NCBI RefSeq assembly: GCF_900109525.1
Contig: NZ_FOAN01000006.1
Location: 124,001 to 188,000, forward strand
Source: Allobosea lupini
GTDB lineage: Bacteria > Pseudomonadota > Alphaproteobacteria > Rhizobiales > Beijerinckiaceae
DNA: 64,000 bases
Direction of reading: 5' to 3'
Made by a program: the position numbers and the translations under genes. Under the pieces are notes generated by a model. The model had not been told where the DNA came from, made no database searches, and was given only the letters and a program-made list of their open reading frames with translations. Positions 32,182 to 42,978 of the stretch are shown one piece after another (position 1 is the stretch's first letter; the number at the start of each line of letters is the position of its first letter).

Positions 32182-32727
32182 TCAGTCGCGCGCCTGCGCC
32201 TTCTCGTCGGCGACGATGTGATCGGCGAGATGGAGGGCTTGCTTCGCCCCGCGGGCGAGCCGCCGCATGATGCCGCTCAGCATCTCGAAATCCGCGCGAT
32301 CGAGCGAGGCGAACAGCGCGTCGTTCACCGGCCGCTGCAGCGCCGCCAGACGCTCCAGCATCGTTGACCCGAGCGGCGTTACCGAGAGATTGACCCGGCG
32401 CTTGTCGCTGGCATGCGGCTGCTTGGCGACGAGCCCACTCTTCACCAGCTTGTTCACCTCGATGGTGACGAAGGCGCCGCTGAGATGCAGCCGCTCGGCG
32501 ACCTGCGCCACGCCGACCTCGCCGGCGGCCGCGGCGCGGCTGATCGCGATCATGATCAGGTATTGCGGCGGGGTCAGCCCGATATAGGCGGCGAAACGCG
32601 CCCTCGCCTCCTCCAGCCGGCCGCCGAAGGCGAAGAAATCGTAGAGCAGGTCGCGGAAGCGCGTATCGCTGCCGTCATCCAGCAAATCCGGCTTTGCCAC
32701 GGTCATGCGCCGGTTCTCGCTCGACAT
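32182..32727 (-). CDS. MarR family transcriptional regulator
   Basis: A 181-residue MarR-type regulator. The winged helix contains GEVGVAQVAERLHLSGAF, VTIEVNKLVKSGLVAK and the wing KRRVNLSVTPLG. N- and C-terminal helices form the dimer interface. It diverges from the flavin reductase/monooxygenase operon, and a 27-bp perfect palindrome at 32761-32787 lies between them, 33 nt before its own start. It is therefore likely the repressor of that operon, released by an aromatic or phenolic ligand as is common for MarR proteins next to aromatic hydroxylases. Confidence 0.92.
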   Translation of the reverse strand: MSSENRRMTVAKPDLLDDGSDTRFRDLLYDFFAFGGRLEEARARFAAYIGLTPPQYLIMIAISRAAAAGEVGVAQVAERLHLSGAFVTIEVNKLVKSGLVAKQPHASDKRRVNLSVTPLGSTMLERLAALQRPVNDALFASLDRADFEMLSGIMRRLARGAKQALHLADHIVADEKAQARD

Positions 32728-32750: not shown

Positions 32751-32779
32751 TTGACTGCCTTAGATAGCTTTGTTACAAA
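32751..32779 (+). promoter_or_regulatory. Putative sigma70 promoter of the flavin monooxygenase operon
   Basis: TTGACT (32751-32756) and TACAAA (32774-32779) are separated by exactly 17 bp, giving a good -35 and a fair -10 match. The predicted start lies near 32786, 40 nt before the flavin reductase ATG. The 27-bp palindrome at 32761-32787 covers the spacer, the -10 and the start point, the arrangement expected for repression by MarR. Confidence 0.6.
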
Positions 32780-32787
32780 GCTATCTA
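32761..32787. promoter_or_regulatory. Putative MarR operator, 27-bp perfect inverted repeat
   Basis: The arms TAGATAGCTTTGT and ACAAAGCTATCTA are perfectly complementary around a single central T. The site sits in the 100-bp divergent region between marR and the flavin reductase gene and overlaps the predicted -10. Length and AT-rich composition fit MarR-type operators. Confidence 0.75.
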
Positions 32788-32827: not shown

Positions 32828-33346
32828 ATGGATGCCAAGGCCTTCAGGCAATCCCTGGGCGAGTTCGCCACCGGCGTCGCGGTGATCACCGCGCAGGGCA
32901 GCGGCGAGGAGCTCATCGGCATGACCATGAGTTCGTTCAACTCCGTTTCGATCGATCCGCCGCTCGTCCTGTTCAGCGTCGACAGGCGGGCGAACAGCCT
33001 GCCGGCCATGCTTGAGGCCAAGGGCTTCGCGGTCAACGTGCTGGCGCGCGAACAGGAGCACATATCCAACCGTTTCGCCCGCGCGCTAGGCGATAAATGG
33101 TCGGAGACCAGGCGCAGCGTCGGCCATGCCCAGGCGCCGCTGATCACCGGATCGCTCGCCCATTTCGAATGCGAGCCCTACGCCAATCACGACGGCGGCG
33201 ACCACGTCATCTTCCTGGTGCGGGTGCTGCGCCACACCGTGCGCCCCGGCACTCCGGCGCCCCTGATCTTCTTCCGCGGCCGCTATCGCGACCTCGTCGA
33301 CGAGACCCAGCGCGAGCCGTCCTGGCCGCTGCCCATCCACTACTGA
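32828..33346 (+). CDS. Flavin reductase domain protein (HpaC-like)
   Basis: A 172-residue NAD(P)H:flavin oxidoreductase of the HpaC/DIM6 family. It opens FRQSLGEFATGVAVITAQG, has MTMSSFNSVSIDPPLVLFSV for flavin binding, and a GDHVIFLVRVLRHT C-terminal strand with HYXX-like His residues. Such proteins supply reduced FAD or FMN to a separate oxygenase, here the HpaB-like protein encoded 25 nt downstream. It is the first gene of the MarR-controlled operon. Confidence 0.93.
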   Translation: MDAKAFRQSLGEFATGVAVITAQGSGEELIGMTMSSFNSVSIDPPLVLFSVDRRANSLPAMLEAKGFAVNVLAREQEHISNRFARALGDKWSETRRSVGHAQAPLITGSLAHFECEPYANHDGGDHVIFLVRVLRHTVRPGTPAPLIFFRGRYRDLVDETQREPSWPLPIHY

Positions 33347-33371
33347 CAGCCGAAACAGCGAGGACAGACCC

Positions 33372-34835
33372 ATGACCAAGACCGGACAGCAGCATCTGGC
33401 CAGCCTGCGCGACGACCGCTCGATCTATATCGACGGTGCCAAGGTCGAAGACGTCACCAGCCACCGCGCCTTCCGCAACGTGGCGCAGTCGGTCGCCGGC
33501 CTGTTCGACTTCGCCGGCGATGCCTCGCGCCGCGATCTCATGACCTTCGAGACCGAGACCGGGGGCCGCGCCAACCGGATCTGGCAATTGCCGACCTCCT
33601 ATGCCGACTTGGTCGAGCGCCGCCGGGCGCTGGAAGCCTGGACCGCGATCCATGGCGGCTTCCTCGGCCGTGCCCCCGACCATGTCGCCTCCTGCATCTC
33701 CGGCATGCGCATGGGCCTGCCGGTATTCGAAGGCTACGATCCCGCCCGCGCCGCGGCGCTCGAAGCCTATTACCGCTACGCCCGCGACAACGACCTCTAC
33801 CTCACCTACGTCATCATCAACCCGCAGGCCGACCGCTCCAAGAACGCGGCCGAGCAGGCCGACCCGTTCCTGACCGCCGGCGTGGTCGATCGCGATGCGC
33901 AGGGCATCACCATCCGCGGCGCCAAGATGCTGGCGACCGGCGGCGTCGTCGCCAACGAGGTCTTCGTGACCACGATCCAGCCGATGCAGCCGGGCGAGGA
34001 GCGCTATGCCGTCTCCTTCGCCATCCCGATGAACAGCAAGGGCCTGAAGATGCTCTCGCGCAAATCCTACGAGGCGCAGGCGGACTCGATCTTCGACAAC
34101 CCGCTGGCCAGCCGCTACGACGAGAACGACGCGGTGCTGTTCTTCGACGACGTCAAGGTTCCGTGGGACCGCGTCTTCATCGATGGCAGCGTCGAGATGT
34201 GCCAGAAGCAGTTCCACGCGACACCGGCGCATGTCTACCAGAACTACCAGGCGATGATCCGCCTCAAGGTGAAGCTGCAGTTCCTGATGGGCATCGCCCA
34301 TCGCACCACCCAGACCAACGGCATCACGCAGTTCCCGCAGGTGCGCGAGACCCTCGGCCAGCTCGCGGCGGAAGCGGCGATGGTCGACGCCTTCGTCAAC
34401 GCCATGGAAGCCAAGGGCACGCGGGCCGGCCCCTACTTCGTGCCCGACCGGCACATGCTCTATTCGGCGCAGGTGCTGACCCAGCAGATGTATCCGAAGA
34501 TCCTGAACTCGCTGCGCGAGCTCGCCGGCGGCGGCATGATCATGCTGCCCTCCTCGATCGCCGACTTCGCCAATCCCGAGATCGCGGCGATGATCGAGAA
34601 GACCCAGCAGTCGCCGGCCGCGAACTCGCATGACCGGGTCAAGTTCTACAAGCTCGCCTGGGACGCCGTCGGCTCCGAGTTCGGTTCGCGCCATCACCAG
34701 TACGAGATGTTCTATGCCGGGGCGACCTTCGTGACGAAGGGCCACTCCTTCCGCACCTACGACTGGGGCAAGGCCGGCGGCATCGTCCAGTCGATGCTCG
34801 ACTCCTACGACCTCAATACGAAATCAGCCGCCTGA
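33372..34835 (+). CDS. 4-hydroxyphenylacetate 3-hydroxylase family oxygenase (HpaB-like)
   Basis: A 487-residue acyl-CoA dehydrogenase-fold monooxygenase (HpaB N and C domains). It starts with SLRDDRSIYIDGAKVEDVTSH, typical of HpaB, and contains LTYVIINPQADRSK, KMLATGGVVANEVFVTTIQP, the DDVKVPWDRVFIDG flavin segment and NSHDRVKFYKLAWD. It uses reduced flavin from the preceding reductase to hydroxylate an aromatic or heteroaromatic substrate. Known members act on 4-hydroxyphenylacetate, phenol, chlorophenols and pyrrole-2-carboxylate. The downstream cupin and amidase are not part of the classic hpa pathway, so the substrate is probably different. Confidence 0.92.
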   Translation: MTKTGQQHLASLRDDRSIYIDGAKVEDVTSHRAFRNVAQSVAGLFDFAGDASRRDLMTFETETGGRANRIWQLPTSYADLVERRRALEAWTAIHGGFLGRAPDHVASCISGMRMGLPVFEGYDPARAAALEAYYRYARDNDLYLTYVIINPQADRSKNAAEQADPFLTAGVVDRDAQGITIRGAKMLATGGVVANEVFVTTIQPMQPGEERYAVSFAIPMNSKGLKMLSRKSYEAQADSIFDNPLASRYDENDAVLFFDDVKVPWDRVFIDGSVEMCQKQFHATPAHVYQNYQAMIRLKVKLQFLMGIAHRTTQTNGITQFPQVRETLGQLAAEAAMVDAFVNAMEAKGTRAGPYFVPDRHMLYSAQVLTQQMYPKILNSLRELAGGGMIMLPSSIADFANPEIAAMIEKTQQSPAANSHDRVKFYKLAWDAVGSEFGSRHHQYEMFYAGATFVTKGHSFRTYDWGKAGGIVQSMLDSYDLNTKSAA

Positions 34836-34855
34836 GCCGGCGAAAGGATCGCATC

Positions 34856-35236
34856 ATGCCCGTCAACAAGAGCCATGACGAATTCTACACCCTCGACATG
34901 TCCAAGGGCTGGGAAGTGCCGGCCGGCTATCCCGCCGGCATCCAGCAGAAGATCCTGTCGGGCGCCCTCGACGAGGTGAACAATCGCGGCACCCGCACCC
35001 GTCTGCTGCGCTTCCAGCCGGGCGTCTACACCACCGCGCCGTTTTCCCATGACTATTGGGAGGAGGTCTATCTGATGGAGGGCGACCTGACCGTCGGCAA
35101 TGATGCCAATGGCGAGGGCGGCGAGCGTTTTCCGCCGCACACCTATGCGGTGCGCCCGCCGCACGCTCCGCACGGGCCGTTCAAGTCCGAGAAGGGCTGC
35201 ATCCTGCTCGAAATCCATTATTTCGACCCGGTCTGA
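34856..35236 (+). CDS. Cupin domain protein
   Basis: A 126-residue single-domain cupin. Motif 1 is partly degenerate (TTAPFSHDYWEEVYLMEGDL, with one His and two Glu), and motif 2 is FPPHTYAVRPPHAPHGPFKS with two candidate metal His. It has no signal peptide. Such small cupins beside oxygenases may be dioxygenases, isomerases or lactonase-like enzymes that act on ring-cleavage or hydroxylated products. It lies 20 nt after the monooxygenase gene and 7 nt before the amidase, so it belongs to the same operon. Confidence 0.85.
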   Translation: MPVNKSHDEFYTLDMSKGWEVPAGYPAGIQQKILSGALDEVNNRGTRTRLLRFQPGVYTTAPFSHDYWEEVYLMEGDLTVGNDANGEGGERFPPHTYAVRPPHAPHGPFKSEKGCILLEIHYFDPV

Positions 35237-35243
35237 CCCCGTC

Positions 35244-36593
35244 ATGATGCCGACCCTTGCCAGCCTCGCCGACGATCTCGCCTCGGGACGGACGCGCTCG
35301 CTCACCCTCGTCAGCGAAGCGCTCGACCGGATCGAGGCGCCGGACGGCGAGGGCCGGCTCGCCTTCATCAAGGTCCATCGCGAGGCTGCGCTCGCCGCCG
35401 CCGAAGCGATGGACCGCCTGCGGGCTGCCGGGCTCGCGCCCTCGCCCTTCGCCGGCATTCCGATCTCGGTGAAGGACCTGTTCGACCTCGCCGGCGAACC
35501 GACGCCGGCAGGCTCGGTCGTGCTCGCCGATACAGCGCCGGCCGAGCGCGATGCCCCCGCGATCGCGCGCCTGCGCCGTGCCGGGCTCATTGTCGTGGGC
35601 CGCACCAATATGAGCGAGTTCGCCTTTTCCGGGCTCGGCCTCAATCCACATCACGGCACGCCGGCCTCGCCCTATGACCGTGCGAGCCGCCGCATCCCCG
35701 GCGGCTCGTCTTCGGGCGCAGCGGTATCGGTCGCGGACGGGATGGCGGCGGCCGGCATCGGCTCCGACACCGGCGGCTCCTGTCGCATCCCCGCCGCGCT
35801 CTGCGGCATCACCGGCTACAAGCCGACTGCGGCGAGCGTACCGCTGGACGGCGCCTTCCCGCTCTCCCAGAGCCTCGATTCGATCGGCCCTCTCGCCCGC
35901 AGCGTCGCCTGCTGCCGCGCCTTGCATGAGATCATGAGCGGAACCGAGCTGCCCAGGCACGCGATCGGCCTTGCCGGCCTGCGCATCGCCGTGCCGCAGA
36001 CGGTCGCGCTCGACGGCCTCGATGCGACCGTCGCGGCCGACTTCGCCCGGGCGCTCACCACCCTGTCCAAGGCCGGCGCGCAGATCGTCGAGCAGCCTTT
36101 CGCGCGCTTCGCCGAGGTCGCCCGCATCAACGCCAAGGGCGGCTTTGCGGCGGCCGAGTCCTACGCGCATCACCGCGCTCTGATCGCTGCGAAGGGCGAG
36201 GGCTACGATCCGCGCGTGCGCCTGCGCATCCTGCGCGGCGCCAACCAGGACTGCGCCGACGATATCGAGCTGCTGCGCGCCCGCGCCGCCTTCGTCGCCG
36301 CACTGCGCGAGGAGACCGGCGCTTTCGACGTGCTGGCGCTGCCGACCGTGCCGACGATGGCGCCGACCATCGCCGAATGCGATGCCGACGACGAGGCCTT
36401 CACCCGCCTCAACCTCTTGATGCTGCGCAATCCGACCCTGATCAACATGATGGACGGCTGCGCCATCTCGCTGCCGATGCATCGGGCGGGCGAGGCGCCT
36501 ACCGGACTGATGCTGGCGCGGGCCGGCGGCGAGGATTCGGCATTGTTCGGGATCGCAGCGGCAGCCGAAGCGGCGCTGGCGGGCGACCGCTGA
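35244..36593 (+). CDS. Amidase (amidase signature family)
   Basis: A 449-residue amidase signature enzyme. The Ser-cisSer-Lys triad is visible: Lys77 in SVKDLFD, Ser155 in the PGGSSSGAA motif and the nucleophile Ser179 in GSDTGGS. The family hydrolyses amides, ureas or imides to acid plus ammonia. ATG 35244 (or 35247) directly follows the cupin stop; earlier in-frame starts lie inside the cupin gene. As the last gene of the MarR operon, it probably releases ammonia from an amide that is either the substrate or a product of the monooxygenase step. Confidence 0.92.
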   Translation: MMPTLASLADDLASGRTRSLTLVSEALDRIEAPDGEGRLAFIKVHREAALAAAEAMDRLRAAGLAPSPFAGIPISVKDLFDLAGEPTPAGSVVLADTAPAERDAPAIARLRRAGLIVVGRTNMSEFAFSGLGLNPHHGTPASPYDRASRRIPGGSSSGAAVSVADGMAAAGIGSDTGGSCRIPAALCGITGYKPTAASVPLDGAFPLSQSLDSIGPLARSVACCRALHEIMSGTELPRHAIGLAGLRIAVPQTVALDGLDATVAADFARALTTLSKAGAQIVEQPFARFAEVARINAKGGFAAAESYAHHRALIAAKGEGYDPRVRLRILRGANQDCADDIELLRARAAFVAALREETGAFDVLALPTVPTMAPTIAECDADDEAFTRLNLLMLRNPTLINMMDGCAISLPMHRAGEAPTGLMLARAGGEDSALFGIAAAAEAALAGDR

Positions 36594-36792: not shown

Positions 36793-37494
36793 TCAGCCCT
36801 GGCGGGTGATGTTGGCGCGGAAGGATTCGATATGGGCTCGCATCGCCCGCTCGGCCGCGTCCGGATCCTGCCGGGCGATGCCTTCGACGATGGCGGCATG
36901 CTCGTCGCAGATGCGCGAATGCTGCTCGTTGGTGCTGAGCGAGATGAACCACATCCGCGCCGAGCGCTCGTGCAGGTTCCGCAGCAGGTCGCTCATCACC
37001 GGGTTGCGGGCCGAGCCGGCGATGATCGCGTGAAACGCCTGGTCGAGATCGGCGATCGTCTCGATGTCGCGCGCCTGCGCCGCCTCGCGCATCGCCTCGA
37101 GATTGCGCCGGAGCTGGGCCGGCACCTCGGTACTGGCCCGCTCGGCGGCGACGCGCACGCAGAAGGTCTCGTTGACGATGCGCGCATCGATGATGTTGAG
37201 GATCTCGTCCAGGCTGACCGGCTTCACGATCGTGCCCTTGCGCGGCATCACCTCGACCAGCCCGTCATTGAGCAGCCGGTCGATCGCCTGGCGGATCGGC
37301 GTGCGGCCGATATCGAGCTGCGTGCTCAGCGCCGGCTCGCTCAGGATCTCGCCCGGACGCAGGCCGGTGGTGATGATCAGGCGCTTGATCGCATGATAGG
37401 CTTGGTCGCGCAGCGAGACATGCCGCTGCGCGTCCTTGGGCGTTTCCAGAAGCGTCACGTTACGTCGCACCGCGCGGTTTGAGGTTGCCGCCAT
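36793..37494 (-). CDS. GntR family regulator (FCD domain)
   Basis: A 233-residue FadR-type regulator. The wHTH reads LRDQAYHAIKRLIITTGLRP, then GEILSEPALSTQLDIGRTPI and RQAIDRLLNDGLVEV; the FCD domain follows (DARIVNETFCVRVAAERAS, ADLDQAFHAIIAGSARNPV, DEHAAIVEGIARQDP). It is transcribed after the DUF2848 gene with a 22-nt gap. ATG 37494 is preferred because longer starts would overlap DUF2848. Its probable target is the 44-bp palindrome at 38273-38316 upstream of the operon and of the divergent Liv-type importer. Confidence 0.88.
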   Translation of the reverse strand: MAATSNRAVRRNVTLLETPKDAQRHVSLRDQAYHAIKRLIITTGLRPGEILSEPALSTQLDIGRTPIRQAIDRLLNDGLVEVMPRKGTIVKPVSLDEILNIIDARIVNETFCVRVAAERASTEVPAQLRRNLEAMREAAQARDIETIADLDQAFHAIIAGSARNPVMSDLLRNLHERSARMWFISLSTNEQHSRICDEHAAIVEGIARQDPDAAERAMRAHIESFRANITRQG

Positions 37495-37516: not shown

Positions 37517-38203
37517 TCAACCCCGGATCGGCAGAATCTTGAGGTCGTAGCCGAAGCGGATGCTGCGGCGCAGGACCGGGTCCTCCAGTTCGCCCTCAAA
37601 ACGGCTGGCCATCTGGATGCCGCCGATCGCTGGCATGGTGCCGCCGAAGATCGCCGTGCCGTCAGGCAGCGCGCCCGTGCCGTTGAAGCCGCGGATCAGG
37701 TCCTCCGGAGCGAGCAGGCCCGAGATCGGCCCCTCCTGGTAGAGCCGGCGCTCGCCGTCGATCACCGCGAAGCTGCGCAGGATCAGCTCGTCCCAATGGC
37801 CGGCGACCTCCTGATAGGGCCAGACGGTCGCAGCGACCGGCTTGTCGCAGACCTGCTTGGAGACGCTGATGCCATAGGTCTCGACCTGGCGGTCGGTATG
37901 GTCGGAGCCGACGCCGACATAAGTCTGGCCGCCGCAGGAGAGCAGCACGGCCTCGACCTCGCCGCTGCTGTTGGCGCCGACATCCTCGATGACCGGGTCG
38001 GTGGTCAGCCTGGCGGCGGCGACGCGATAGTAGACCGGCGTCGAGGTCGGCCGCTTCACGCCAAGCGCTTCCAGCTCGACCATGTGGTGCTCCATCGCCG
38101 CCTTGTCGCGCCCGGCCCAGCCGCCGATCACCAGTTCGTCGATCGCCGCGGTCAGCGGGCTGGAGCCGGTCCGGCTCTCCACCGTCAGTGCCAGGGTCTT
38201 CAT
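37517..38203 (-). CDS. DUF2848 family protein
   Basis: A 228-residue cytoplasmic protein that I recognise as DUF2848: it has LVIGGWAGRDKAAMEHHMVE, PVYYRVAAARLTTDPVIEDV, VGVGSDHTDRQVETYGISVS and FGGTMPAIGGIQMASRFEGE. The family has the look of a fumarylacetoacetase-like hydrolase fold, with acidic and His metal-ligand candidates (SDHTDR, ELED), but no reaction is established to my knowledge. It is co-transcribed with gntR and diverges from the importer. A role as hydrolase or isomerase on the imported compound is likely; this is inference. Confidence 0.8.
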   Translation of the reverse strand: MKTLALTVESRTGSSPLTAAIDELVIGGWAGRDKAAMEHHMVELEALGVKRPTSTPVYYRVAAARLTTDPVIEDVGANSSGEVEAVLLSCGGQTYVGVGSDHTDRQVETYGISVSKQVCDKPVAATVWPYQEVAGHWDELILRSFAVIDGERRLYQEGPISGLLAPEDLIRGFNGTGALPDGTAIFGGTMPAIGGIQMASRFEGELEDPVLRRSIRFGYDLKILPIRG

Positions 38204-38272
38204 CGCCTCTCGCCTTCCCGAAATCGCGCTGCCCCTTCGCCGGGCAGCCTGCCCAAAAAAACTTCGAGATGC

Positions 38273-38316
38273 CTCTATAAAAATCCTTGTGAAATTTCAC
38301 AAGGATTTTTATAGAG
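38273..38316. promoter_or_regulatory. 44-bp perfect palindrome in divergent promoter region
   Basis: Two 22-nt arms (38273-38294 and 38295-38316) are exactly complementary with no spacer; the core is TTGTGAAATTTCACAA and the ends CTCTATAA / TTATAGAG-type sequence. Within it TTGTGA (38287-38292) and TATAGA (38310-38315) form a -35/-10 pair with 17-bp spacing pointing right; by symmetry the same pair points left (38302-38297 and 38279-38274). The predicted starts lie on both sides, toward the importer (ATG 38394) and DUF2848 (ATG 38203). It is the likely GntR operator. Confidence 0.75.
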
Positions 38317-38393
38317 ATTTCCAAGCGCCGCAGCTGCGCGGGGACGGCGACGGCGCCCGGACAGGACGCCGATCGGAAACGGAGAGGAAAACC

Positions 38394-39686
38394 ATGATCA
38401 GATCAGCTTGGATGGCCGCTCTGGCGGTCTCGTTCGGCGCCGTTGCGGCTCCGGCCGTCGCGCAGGAGAAGCCGGCATCCCTTGGTGTCGGCGTCATGAC
38501 CTTCACCTCGGGCCCGGCAGCCGCCTATGGCGTCCCCGGCAAGAACGCCGCCGAGCTGATGATCGACATGATCAACGCCCGCGGCGGGATCGGCGGCGTG
38601 CCGCTGAAGGCGACCTATGTCGACGAGGCGCAGGGCACGCAGGGCGTCATCGCCGAATACCGCCGCCTCGCCGAAGACAAGTCCAACCAGGTGATGATCG
38701 CGGCGCTGTCGAGCGCCAACTGCCTGGCGCTGGCCCCGCTCGCCGAGCAGATGCAGGCCCCGACGATCGGCTGGAACTGCGACACGCACCAGCTCCTGCT
38801 CGACGGCAAGAGCAAGTATTATTTCCGCCCGAACGGCAACACGATCCCGGAATTCGTCGCCTATGCGCTCTATCTCCTGCAGCGCAAGCCGGACGTGAAG
38901 CGGATCGCCATCGTCAATCCCGACTACGCCTTCGGCCATGACGCGGCGCTGATCTTCAAGACCGCGATGAAGGCGCTGAAGCCGGATGTCGAGGTCGTGG
39001 CGGAGCTGTTCCCCAAGCTCGGCTCGGCCAATTTCCAGACCGAGATCTCGAAGCTCTCGGCCTCGCGGCCGGATGTGGTGTTCTCCAATCTCTGGGGCGC
39101 CGATCTCGAGAACTTCGTGCGCCAGGCCCAGCCGCGCGGGCTATTCACCTCGAGCCAGGTCGTGCTGGCGCTGGGCGAGACCGTACTCCAGCGCGCCAAC
39201 CTGCCCGAAGGCGTCATCGTCGGCGTGCTCGGTGACGGCTGGTGGATGTCGCCCGACGCCAGGGCCAATCCTGTGACCAAGGCCTTCGTCGAGGCCTATG
39301 AAAAGCGTTATGGCGAGTACCCGGTCTTCCCGTCGGTCAAGATGGCCAACGCGATCATCTACATGAAGGCCGCCTATGAGGCCGCGCTGAAGAAGACCGG
39401 AGGCAAATGGCCGAGCCGCAACGAACTCGCCGATGCCATGCGCGGCAGCACGGTCAAGACGCTGACCGGCACCACCGTGACCCGCAAGGACAATGACGGC
39501 CTCGTCGACCAGGTCGTCGGCGTCACCGCCAAGTCGCCCGACTACAAGTTCCCGGTGATCGGCGGCATGGTCCGCTACAAGGGCGACACGCTGATGCCGC
39601 CCCAGGGCGACGATGCGATCAAATGGGTGGGAACGCTGACCCCGGCCTTCCTCGCCACCCAGCCCAAGCCCGGCAGCTACCAGTAA
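38394..39686 (+). CDS. ABC transporter substrate-binding protein, branched-chain amino acid type
   Basis: A 430-residue Peripla_BP_6 protein with a Sec signal peptide (MIRSAWMAALAVSFG, cleavage near AVAQ). The mature part begins LGVGVMTFTSGPAAAYGVPG and has NARGGIGGVPLKATYVDEAQ. GGAGAGGAAA precedes ATG 38394. It heads the five-gene importer operon (binding protein, LivH, LivM, LivG, LivF). Placement beside the monooxygenase/amidase operon and DUF2848 suggests that it captures an aromatic or amide-bearing acid, not leucine. Confidence 0.92.
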   Translation: MIRSAWMAALAVSFGAVAAPAVAQEKPASLGVGVMTFTSGPAAAYGVPGKNAAELMIDMINARGGIGGVPLKATYVDEAQGTQGVIAEYRRLAEDKSNQVMIAALSSANCLALAPLAEQMQAPTIGWNCDTHQLLLDGKSKYYFRPNGNTIPEFVAYALYLLQRKPDVKRIAIVNPDYAFGHDAALIFKTAMKALKPDVEVVAELFPKLGSANFQTEISKLSASRPDVVFSNLWGADLENFVRQAQPRGLFTSSQVVLALGETVLQRANLPEGVIVGVLGDGWWMSPDARANPVTKAFVEAYEKRYGEYPVFPSVKMANAIIYMKAAYEAALKKTGGKWPSRNELADAMRGSTVKTLTGTTVTRKDNDGLVDQVVGVTAKSPDYKFPVIGGMVRYKGDTLMPPQGDDAIKWVGTLTPAFLATQPKPGSYQ

Positions 39687-39756: not shown

Positions 39757-40656
39757 ATGCTCGACACCCTGATTCCGCTTGCCGTCGACGGCCTCGCCAG
39801 CGCGGCGCTGATCTTCTTCGTCGCCGTCGGGCTGACCCTCGTCTTCAGCGTGCTGCGCGTGCTCAACGTCGCGCATGGCAGCTTCTACGCGATCGGCGCC
39901 TATGTCGCCGCCTCGATCGGCCTGTGGATCGCCAGCGCGGGCCTGAACCCCTGGCTCTCCTTCCCGGCCCTCGTCTTCAGCGCCGCGATCGTCGCCGCGC
40001 TGTTCGGCCCGCTGGTCGAGCGCTGCCTGATGCGCTGGACCTATGGCAAGTCGGAAGCGATCCAGATCCTCGTCACCTTCGGCCTGTTCCTGATCCTGGA
40101 GGACCTGCAGCGCATCGTCTTCGGCGTGCGCTCGCTCGCAGAAGACACGCCGATGCAGTTGCTCGGCTCGACGCAGATCGGCGACGTCGTCTATCTCAAC
40201 TACCAGCTCCTGCTGATCGGCCTCGCCGTCATCGTGGTCGTCGGCCTGCGCATCATGCTCACGAAGACTCGGATCGGCAGGCTGGTCACCGCCGTCGTGG
40301 CCGATCGCGAGATGGCACAGAGCATCGGCATCAACACCAACCGCGTCTTCATCCTCTCCTTCACGCTCGGCGTCTTCCTGGCGGCACTGGGCGGGGCGCT
40401 GGCGACACCGACCGCGGGCGCAGCACCCGGCCTCGGCGCCGAGACCATGGTGCTCGCCTTCGCCGTCGCCGCTATCGGCGGGCTCGGCCAGATCGAGGGC
40501 GCGGCGCTGGCGGCGATCATCGTCGGCCTCGCCCGCGTGCTCGCCATCTATTTCGCGCCGTCGCTCGATGCGGTCGCCCCCTACATCGTCATGCTCGTCG
40601 TGCTGCTGGTCCGCCCCTACGGACTGTTCGGCCAGGCGGCGACCCGGAGGATCTGA
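39757..40656 (+). CDS. Branched-chain-type ABC permease (LivH-like)
   Basis: A 299-residue permease with about eight helices. The LRVLNVAHGSFYAIGAYVAA segment is the LivH signature and VAAIGGLGQIEGAALAAIIV the ATPase-contact loop. ATG 39757 is chosen because AGG lies 8 nt before it; GTG 39748 is also in frame. It is 70 nt after the binding protein gene and 5 nt before the livM-like gene. Confidence 0.92.
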   Translation: MLDTLIPLAVDGLASAALIFFVAVGLTLVFSVLRVLNVAHGSFYAIGAYVAASIGLWIASAGLNPWLSFPALVFSAAIVAALFGPLVERCLMRWTYGKSEAIQILVTFGLFLILEDLQRIVFGVRSLAEDTPMQLLGSTQIGDVVYLNYQLLLIGLAVIVVVGLRIMLTKTRIGRLVTAVVADREMAQSIGINTNRVFILSFTLGVFLAALGGALATPTAGAAPGLGAETMVLAFAVAAIGGLGQIEGAALAAIIVGLARVLAIYFAPSLDAVAPYIVMLVVLLVRPYGLFGQAATRRI

Positions 40657-40661
40657 CCGCC

Positions 40662-41585
40662 ATGCGCGCCGCCCTCTTCCTCGTCGCCCTCGCCGCGCTG
40701 GCGCTCGCGCCGATCGCCGCGCCCTGGCTGCAATTCGTGCTGACGCTCGCCGTCGCCAAGGGTTTCGCCGCGCTCGGCGTCGCCGTGCTGCTGCGCGGCG
40801 GGCTGATCTCGATCGGCCACGCCATGTTCTACGCCGTCAGCGCCTATGCCATCGCCTTCCTGGCGCGGGCCGGCCTCAACGAGTTCGTGGTGCTGCTCGT
40901 GCTCGGCACGCTCGCCTCGGCCGTGACTGGCCTGATCGTCGGCGCCTTCCTGGTGCGCTACCGCGCGATCTTCTTCGCCATGCTCAACCTCGCCATGTCG
41001 ATGGTGCTCTACGCGCTGCTCTCCAAGCTCTACGGCATCACCGGCGGCACGGACGGCCTGCGCCTGGCGGTGCCGCGCTTTTTCGGTATGACGCTCGACA
41101 AGGCGAGCTTCGACACCGCGCTCTACTATGCCGGTCTCGTGCTGATGCTCGGCGTCGGCTACGGCGTGCAGCGCTATCTGGCGAGCCCGCTCGGCCATGC
41201 GCTCGCCGCCGTGCACACTAACGAGCTCCGGCTCGAATATCTCGGCGTTCCCGTCCGGATCGTGCTCCTGATCGCCTACACCGTCTCGGCCGCGCTCGCC
41301 GGCATCGGCGGGGCGATCGCGGCGATGGCGATCGGCCATATCCTGCCCGAGTTCGCCTTCTGGACGGCGTCCGGCCATCTCGTCCTGGTCGCGGTGCTCG
41401 GCGGCATCGGCGGCGTCGCCGGCCCCTTCATCGGCTCGCTCTTCCTCGAAGTGCTGCACACCCTGGCGGTCGGCGTCACCGATGCCTGGAACCTGATCAT
41501 CGGCGTCGCGCTGATCGGCGTCATCTTCTTCCTGCCGAGCGGGCTCTACGGCCTGCTCCGGCGCCGCAGCGGAGAACCGGCATGA
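40662..41585 (+). CDS. Branched-chain-type ABC permease (LivM-like)
   Basis: A 307-residue permease. It begins with a hydrophobic helix (RAALFLVALAALALAPIAA) and has LISIGHAMFYAVSAYAIAFL and VAVLGGIGGVAGPFIGSLFL, the LivM signatures. ATG 40662 has CGGAGG upstream. The frame is open much further 5', but that part overlaps livH in another frame and is not coding. It overlaps the livG-like gene by 4 nt (ATGA). Confidence 0.92.
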   Translation: MRAALFLVALAALALAPIAAPWLQFVLTLAVAKGFAALGVAVLLRGGLISIGHAMFYAVSAYAIAFLARAGLNEFVVLLVLGTLASAVTGLIVGAFLVRYRAIFFAMLNLAMSMVLYALLSKLYGITGGTDGLRLAVPRFFGMTLDKASFDTALYYAGLVLMLGVGYGVQRYLASPLGHALAAVHTNELRLEYLGVPVRIVLLIAYTVSAALAGIGGAIAAMAIGHILPEFAFWTASGHLVLVAVLGGIGGVAGPFIGSLFLEVLHTLAVGVTDAWNLIIGVALIGVIFFLPSGLYGLLRRRSGEPA

Positions 41586-42328
41586 CGACGCCCCTCCTCC
41601 AGGCCAAGGACCTGCGCATTGCCTTCTACGGCGTGCAGGCGGCCGACGGCGTCAACCTCGAGATCCGCGAGGGCGAATTCCTCGCCATCATCGGCCCGAA
41701 CGGCTCCGGCAAGACGACCTTCCTCAATCTCTGCACCGGCTATCTCCGGCCGAGCTCGGGCGAGGTCTATCTCGACGGCAAGCCGATCACCGCCATGGCG
41801 CCGCGCACCATCGCGCGGCGCGGCATCGCCCGCGCCTTCCAGATCCCGCAGCTCTTCCTCGACCAGACGGTTCTCGACAACCTGATGATCGCGGTCGCGG
41901 CCAAGCGCGGCATCTGGGTGCCGTTCAAGGCGCTCGACGCCGATGGCCGCCGGCGCGAGGCCGAAGAGCTGCTGGCGCTTGTCGGGCTCGACGGCGAGGC
42001 GCAGCAGCTGGCCGGCGCGCTGCCGGAGGGGCGGCGCAAGCTCCTCGACATCGTCATCGCTCTGGCGCTGAAGCCGCGCCTCGTCCTGCTCGACGAGCCG
42101 ACCAGCGGCGTCAGCACGATCGAGCGCTTCACCCTGATGGAGACGCTGATGGCCGCGCTGCGCCGCGCCAAGGTCACGGCGCTGTTCGTCGAGCACGACA
42201 TGGATGTGGTGCAGCGCTATGCCGACCGCGTCGTCGTCTGGGATTCCGGCTCGGTGATGGCGGAAGGGCCGCCCTCCGAGGTGTTCAAGGATGAGCGCGT
42301 GCTGCGCAATGTCGTGGGGGTGGCGTGA
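41582..42328 (+). CDS. Branched-chain-type ABC ATPase (LivG-like)
   Basis: A 248-residue ATPase. Walker A is GPNGSGKTT (38-46 region), the LivG-type Q-loop region is RAFQIPQLFLDQTVLDNLMI, Walker B is LVLLDEPTSGVS and the H-loop VEHDMD. The signature region reads LPEGRRKLLDIVIAL: the usual LSxG(E/G)Q is altered to a PEGRR form, seen in some LivG-type proteins. It overlaps both neighbours by a few bases, and all genes of the operon are translationally coupled. Confidence 0.92.
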   Translation: MTTPLLQAKDLRIAFYGVQAADGVNLEIREGEFLAIIGPNGSGKTTFLNLCTGYLRPSSGEVYLDGKPITAMAPRTIARRGIARAFQIPQLFLDQTVLDNLMIAVAAKRGIWVPFKALDADGRRREAEELLALVGLDGEAQQLAGALPEGRRKLLDIVIALALKPRLVLLDEPTSGVSTIERFTLMETLMAALRRAKVTALFVEHDMDVVQRYADRVVVWDSGSVMAEGPPSEVFKDERVLRNVVGVA

Positions 42329-42978
42329 TGCTGCGCATGGAAGACGTGACCGTCGCCATCGCTGGCGTGCAGGTGCTGCGATCGGTGTCGCTGGGGCTGA
42401 CCTCCGGCAGGACCACGATCCTGATCGGCCGCAATGGCGCCGGCAAGACCACGACGCTGCGGGCGATCATGGGGCTTTTGCCGGTCGAGGCCGGCGCGGT
42501 CCATCTCGGCGAACAGGAGATCGGCACGACCCCGGCCTATCAGCGTGCCGCGCAGGGCATAGGCTACGCGCCGGAGGACCGCCGACTGGTGCCCGAATTC
42601 ACGGTCGAGGACAACATCCTGCTGCCTGCGCTGGCGCTCTCCTTGCCGGCGCCCGAGCGGGCACGGCGGCTCGACGAGGTCTATGCGCTGCTGCCGCAGC
42701 TCCTCACCATGCGCACGCGCCCGGGCGGGGGCGTCTCGGGCGGCCAGGGCAAGATGGTGGCGCTGGGCCGGGCGCTGATGGTCGCCCGCACGGCGCTGCT
42801 GCTGGACGAACCCTTCCAGGGGCTCGCCCCGGCGCTGGCGCTCGACTACGCGCGCACGCTCGGCGAGCTCAGGCGTGGCCGGCCGGACCTTGCCATCCTG
42901 ATCACGGAATCGACGCCGGCGCTGCTCGACGCGATCGCCGACGAGACCCTCCAGATCGAGCGCGGCGCCATCAATTAA
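42328..42978 (+). CDS. Branched-chain-type ABC ATPase (LivF-like)
   Basis: A 216-residue ATPase. Walker A is GRNGAGKTT, the signature VSGGQGKMVALGRAL, Walker B LLLDEPFQGLAPALA and the H-loop region ILITESTP, where the usual His is replaced by Thr/Glu. It is slightly shorter than most LivF proteins (about 235). The start ATG overlaps the livG stop (TGATG). It ends the importer operon and converges with the cytochrome c gene, leaving 6 nt between stops. Confidence 0.9.
   Translation: MLRMEDVTVAIAGVQVLRSVSLGLTSGRTTILIGRNGAGKTTTLRAIMGLLPVEAGAVHLGEQEIGTTPAYQRAAQGIGYAPEDRRLVPEFTVEDNILLPALALSLPAPERARRLDEVYALLPQLLTMRTRPGGGVSGGQGKMVALGRALMVARTALLLDEPFQGLAPALALDYARTLGELRRGRPDLAILITESTPALLDAIADETLQIERGAIN

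Follow-up and report, generated by a model that had tools for sequence, protein, structure and literature searches.

A 44-bp perfect palindrome as the candidate single operator of a divergent DUF2848-gntR and Liv-type importer locus

Introduction

What is the role of a long, perfect palindrome in the gap between two divergent operons, and how much of its symmetry is needed for that role? The palindrome in question lies at positions 38273-38316 of the window, i.e., of the whole 64,000-nucleotide stretch of Allobosea lupini DNA that was analysed. Direct reading of its sequence, CTCTATAAAAATCCTTGTGAAATTTCACAAGGATTTTTATAGAG, gives 44 bp that belong to neither strand in particular. It sits in a 190-bp gap between two divergent units, the DUF2848-gntR operon (minus strand) and a Liv-type importer (plus strand). 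The first gene of the leftward operon encodes a DUF2848 protein (37517-38203, minus strand; Pfam DUF2848, 9.7e-76). The same operon includes a gene for a GntR-family regulator with an FCD domain (36793-37494, minus strand), which is the predicted repressor of both operons. This protein is an FCD-type GntR regulator by definition, since it combines a GntR winged helix with an FCD domain and both Pfam scores are above the cut-off (GntR, 8.7e-17; FCD, 4.6e-30). The first gene of the rightward importer operon encodes a periplasmic substrate-binding protein (38394-39686, plus strand; Pfam Peripla_BP_6, 3.4e-54), and is followed by the importer's permeases LivH and LivM and ATPases LivG and LivF (39757-42978, plus strand; Pfam BPD_transp_2 and ABC_tran), names that were assigned from gene order.

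The reading that we favour, with a probability of about 80%, takes the palindrome for the one operator of a divergon, where GntR represses both operons through shared −35/half-sites and a ligand releases it; we infer binding, repression, the ligand and promoter activity. According to this model, a dimer of the FCD-type GntR protein would bind the central TTGTGA-N4-TCACAA. Each half-site would also serve one of two mirror-image promoters as its −35 hexamer, and the matching −10 hexamer would lie towards the outer end of the opposite arm. With GntR bound, both −35 elements would be covered, so that the importer operon and the regulator's own DUF2848-gntR operon would be shut off together until the protein is released by a ligand, probably the compound imported or one of its breakdown products. 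Mirrored −10s would give both operons a similar promoter. Positions are counted here as pairs from the centre, beginning with d1, and those at d9-d17 may be contacted by further regulator subunits.

Results

The palindrome was exact on re-reading, with 22-nt arms that are 100% complementary and no spacer, as originally noted, and it is far beyond what chance would provide. No spacerless arm in the window is longer. The longest arm in 60 dinucleotide shuffles of the window had a mean of 9.2 and a maximum of 15, and 5000 shuffles of the 190-bp intergenic region gave 11 at most. Local composition leads to an expected count of 2e-7 such palindromes per 64 kb. Together, the shuffles and this estimate exclude a chance origin. 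The palindrome is A+T-rich, with a GC content of 27% versus 67% for the window, and its centre (38294.5) is close to the intergenic midpoint (38298.5). A search of the 6.13-Mb genome with up to 3 mismatches found it once, which eliminates a dispersed repeat.

The widely conserved part of the palindrome is the central GTGANATNTCAC (38289-38300), the heart of the predicted GntR site, TTGTGA-N4-TCACAA, at 38287-38302 (no strand). Evidence that this motif belongs to the GntR protein came from counting its occurrences, with no more than 1 mismatch, in the 450 bp that precede DUF2848 or GntR genes. Among loci selected for DUF2848, the motif was found in 15 of the 18 with a GntR homologue and in 1 of the 36 without one (Fisher, 1.4e-9), a contrast to be read with the knowledge that the motif centre was refined by eye on some loci later counted, that the loci are related, and that six of the 15 are the same-genus loci that supplied the motif. 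With those six removed, the contrast is 9/12 versus 1/36 (Fisher, 1.2e-6). A locus was scored as lacking GntR if the stretch retrieved, which reached 1.5 kb for most loci, encoded no homologue at 38% identity or more. This set of 54 loci consists of 18 from the same genus, 29/37 further places (8 without the locus), 6/56 plasmid records and 1/2 besides. Locus L115 was excluded because the palindrome itself had retrieved it; L019, a weak partial match with no DUF2848 hit, was included, and dropping it gives 1/35. A second set was selected by GntR and has 32 loci, corresponding to 34 places outside the genus, since two loci hold two places each. The motif occurs in 29 of these 32 and is missing in L077, L094 and L099; at L077, a contig end cuts the locus just where the site would be.

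The motif is also concentrated in the upstream windows. Their 29 kb hold 24 exact cores, versus a single one in the 358 kb that make up the rest of these loci, with 0 for the reversed pattern; if one mismatch is allowed, the counts are 32 and 8, with 1 for the reversed pattern. A phylum-wide search of 388 genomes, made after the motif was fixed, yielded three new GntR loci, all from one other family, and all three have the exact core. In two of them it lies within about 120 bp upstream of GntR. In the third it lies just upstream of the DUF2848 gene and was seen only in a longer stretch (L165). No core motif was found in the 17-18 kb (L162, L163) around L129 and L131, where a GntR protein of 50-51% identity is encoded beside DUF2848. 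L143 is a DUF2848 locus that carries the motif with no GntR in its 1.5-kb flanks. L147, the third miss among the 18 beside L129 and L131, has exact cores further out, in a longer stretch with a different gene order (L164, positions 3395 and 13819). One precedes the importer operon (LivH) by 62 bp, and the other lies on the flavin reductase side, about 0.6 kb upstream of that gene. GntR in this rearranged locus may control the whole module.

The window has no second core with up to 1 mismatch. The exact core occurs once in the whole 6.13-Mb genome, at this site, but the reversed control also occurs once, so the single genomic core proves nothing alone; the 16-mer with up to 2 mismatches has two further places in the genome. 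With one exact core in 6.13 Mb there is no sign of a large regulon, and a global-regulator site was rejected. The association of motif and gene (15/18 versus 1/36) upholds the proposal of a regulatory site with the adjacent GntR as its probable regulator. Judging from these comparisons, the neighbouring GntR protein is very probably the regulator of the palindrome.

Within the genus, the palindrome follows the locus closely. A DUF2848 orthologue at 86% identity or more is present in 6 of 67 same-genus genomes, and the palindrome core (the 22-bp centre, up to 3 mismatches) is present in exactly those 6 and in 0 of the 61 others. In another 12 same-genus genomes, DUF2848 matches reach 57% identity at most, with L019, a short partial match, as the weakest; all 12 are without the core. 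The comparison of intergenic regions that the original prediction had called for came out in its favour, with the core kept in 6/6 genomes that have the orthologue. Across these six loci, no change occurs in any of the 32 arm columns of ATAAAAATCCTTGTGA-N4-TCACAAGGATTTTTAT, whereas only 51 of the 160 intergenic columns outside are invariant. The pairing is not complete everywhere: four relatives (G057, G065, G035 and G059) are unpaired at the central pair, d1, with G059 also unpaired at d22, and G058 is unpaired at d2, d19, d20, d22 and d23. The eleven genes that run from flavin reductase to LivF stand in the same order in all five same-genus relatives. This order recurs in a Candidimonas metagenome-assembled genome (betaproteobacteria) with 69-83% protein identity, where the palindrome is 46 bp long and perfect, with different outer letters.

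A scan of all genomes in the species-genome collection for TCCTTGTGANNNNTCACAAGGA returned 9 stretches: three from the same genus, one from Candidimonas and five without the locus, one of which (L120) has a 28% GntR match. A family scan with up to 2 mismatches matched 22 of 397 genomes, four of them same-genus. Only one of the 18 matches outside the genus (L026-L043) adjoins DUF2848, namely L027, in genome G150; at the remaining 17 no window proteins were found. The length of the palindrome, which was stressed at the outset, is not general for this operator, because 24 of the 28 loci aligned from outside the genus lose their unbroken symmetry by d9 (within 18 bp). Three loci (L145, L146 and L148) have intermediate perfect palindromes of 28-30 bp with a different flank. 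The 34 loci of this centred alignment were chosen for a visible site, and about a dozen loci with the motif are absent from it, so the alignment cannot give the frequency of the site.

The genes at 32828-36590 encode a flavin reductase, an HpaB-type monooxygenase, a cupin and an amidase. They accompany DUF2848, GntR and the importer in Bosea relatives, Candidimonas, and Roseateles and Paracoccus plasmids, and this joint occurrence suggests that the flavin reductase, monooxygenase, cupin, amidase, DUF2848, GntR and importer genes form one catabolic module. A second palindrome, TAGATAGCTTTGT-T-ACAAAGCTATCTA, lies at 32761-32787, between a MarR gene (32182-32727, minus strand; Pfam MarR_2, 6.6e-11) and the flavin reductase gene. 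The five same-genus relatives retain this palindrome with few changes, and it is probably the MarR operator.

The predicted promoters lie within the palindrome. The rightward promoter (38287-38315, plus strand), directed towards the Liv-type importer, has its −35 element, TTGTGA, at 38287-38292 and its −10 element, TATAGA, at 38310-38315, with a spacing of 17 bp. The leftward promoter (38274-38302, minus strand), directed towards DUF2848-gntR, has its −35 at 38302-38297 and its −10 at 38279-38274, again with 17 bp between them. Each predicted promoter draws one hexamer from each arm, and the inferred transcription starts, at ~38322 rightward and ~38267 leftward, are about 55 bp apart. Both promoters match the sigma-70 consensus at 8/12, a score that no pair in the gap exceeds and that one other pair per strand equals, and a scan at a threshold of 9/12 found none. 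Given these scores, the ties on each strand and the empty scan, the promoters are weak predictions from this sequence alone. In all seven long-arm loci (six same-genus and Candidimonas), −35/−10 pairs occur at 17 bp on both sides. Their −10 variants are TATAGA, TATGAT, TATGGT, TATAGT and TAAGAT, each with 4 or 5 of 6 letters of the consensus; in G058 the two arms differ (TATGAT and TATAGT), with both −10s at 5 of 6 and at 17 bp. Two mirror-image promoters are a likely reading, as far as comparison of sequences can tell. The TTGTGA/TATAGA arrangement first proposed stands in its geometry (17 bp, one hexamer per arm) and in the seven-locus comparison.

Comparison of the loci divides the arms into three zones. 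The zone at d3-d8 is the operator part seen across genera. The letters at d9-d17 are invariant in the six same-genus loci, with one mirrored change (d14) in Candidimonas, a degree of conservation beyond that expected of a promoter spacer. Between species, d18-d23 varies, mostly in mirror, and this zone contains four of the six letters of each −10 (d16-d21). Across the seven loci, with G-T counted as a pair, two-sided changes occur in 7 of 23 pairs (13 cells) and 96.9% of cells pair. The covariation score is 0.263 versus 0.115 after shuffling, with 0/500 shuffles as high, and slid versions reach 0.097 at most. Strict pairing at d17-d23 holds in 43/49 cells, a value that whole-arm permutations equal in 16/5040, while d24-d30 shows no arm match (16/49 cells; 3364/5040 permutations). 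The sample is seven related loci, three of which share the same letters at d17-d22. When only five representatives are used, permutations reach the d17-d23 match in 4/120, and support for mirrored change is therefore moderate. Such change of the outer arms in step between species is unusual.

The survival of so long a palindrome had been taken to suggest selection. Template switching in replication is described as rendering imperfect palindromes more perfect (PMC7202029), so symmetry alone does not imply selection; the conservation of letters (32/32 versus 51/160 columns) does point to it. We lean towards a mixture of selection and template switching as what keeps the outer-arm mirror. A reading that gives most weight to replication holds that the central operator is selected and the perfection of the outer arms is made by template switching: once the core has folded into a hairpin, polymerase would use one arm as the template for the other, and concerted evolution of the arms would require no symmetric recognition. 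This is compatible with the operator reading, and we consider it a real possibility, if somewhat short of an even chance. It is supported by the two-sided changes, covariation and permutation results given above, by a mechanism already on record (PMC7202029), and by the folding of the single strand at −18.6 kcal/mol for this palindrome and −20.6 kcal/mol for the Candidimonas version. Moreover, d23, which lies outside the −10 hexamer, is paired in 5/7 loci with three pair types, two of which occur in the close relatives G057 and G065. However, G058 is asymmetric at the five positions listed above yet keeps both −10s at 5 of 6, which shows that this locus does not enforce symmetry; d1 is unpaired in three relatives, or in four if G059 is counted; and homogenisation alone would not give the letter identity at d9-d17. 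The argument also depends on seven loci, three with the same d17-d22 letters. An extension of this idea, in which the promoter-operator evolves as one mirrored unit and template switching copies −10 changes between arms, so that operon strengths are matched by mutation rather than by selection on each promoter, is unlikely on present evidence, though worth stating. We are similarly doubtful that the regulator reads the full 44-46 bp as two or three GntR dimers or a tetramer, with the outer arms as sub-sites and not promoters. The near-invariance of d9-d17 would fit such a complex, and there are precedents in an FCD regulator that is a tetramer (PMC7797058) and in an operator described as bound by three NanR dimers (PMC8012715), but symmetry is over by d9 in most aligned loci outside the genus, and the d18-d23 letters vary within it.

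Other readings dispense with GntR. The GTGA...TCAC pattern resembles a CRP half-site, which could indicate a CRP/FNR-like protein, or the nearby MarR protein, as the regulator instead. In CRP sites, TGTGA and TCACA are separated by 6 bp; here the distance is 4 bp. The strong association with the adjacent GntR gene, the different palindrome (32761-32787) that precedes the MarR gene, and the single exact core in the genome also argue against another regulator, and we regard this reading as very improbable. Less probable still is that the palindrome is an RNA hairpin, a terminator, a mobile repeat or a product of chance. The strand can fold, but the palindrome is single-copy and conserved, chance is excluded, and a scan of 37900-38600 found 0 intrinsic terminators (a G+C-rich stem, then a T run). 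An RNA-hairpin role was rejected because the palindrome lies upstream of both inferred starts.

Discussion

Operation of the palindrome as a single GntR operator would make it a predicted operator, with unusual half-site spacing, for FCD GntR regulators tied to DUF2848 clusters in several Pseudomonadota families. Searches on DUF2848 and on the core sequence, by title and abstract start and with subscription journals mostly outside their scope, found no published description of this site. With its mirrored outer arms, the site is a natural case in which to ask whether selection or template switching maintains the perfection of long regulatory palindromes.

Parallels can be drawn with Atu1419 of Agrobacterium, a tetramer and also an FCD regulator with palindromic sites, one of which is located between −10 and −35 of a promoter (PMC7797058). 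As described there, Atu1419 differs in using a 10-bp site, ATGTATACAT, with two sites 190 bp apart and DNA looping, whereas the window here has the one core.

The symmetry of the locus also recalls bidirectional promoters of E. coli and Salmonella, where DNA symmetry admits polymerase in two orientations, one excluding the other (PMC12825309, PMC10268837). In those reports, divergent starts are 7-25 bp apart and a −10 element is shared. Here, the predicted −10s are separate, it is the −35 elements that overlap, and about 55 bp lie between the inferred starts. Judged by its predicted elements, the palindrome is probably not what PMC10268837 defines as a bidirectional promoter. Polymerase competition at the palindrome is possible by geometry. 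Five bidirectional promoters tested in E. coli are described as having basal activity too low for such competition, which did appear once one direction was strongly activated (PMC12825309).

In its predicted working the locus resembles the single-site divergons of GntR proteins (FadR and HutC subfamilies), which have one site near the intergenic middle (PMC4494728). As in those systems, the locus has an FCD-type GntR protein, a regulator gene within one of the two operons, and one mid-gap palindrome, a near-central site between the regulator's operon and the structural operon. The FadR-subfamily consensus is given as TKGT/ACMA boxes with 2-3 nt between GT and AC (PMC4494728). TTGT and ACAA boxes are present in the palindrome, but with the spacing GT-N8-AC, and the site is therefore not assigned to this consensus. 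The palindrome differs from the divergons described in PMC4494728 in this spacing, in a symmetry that extends over 44-46 bp, and in half-sites that would serve as the −35 hexamers of two predicted mirrored promoters.
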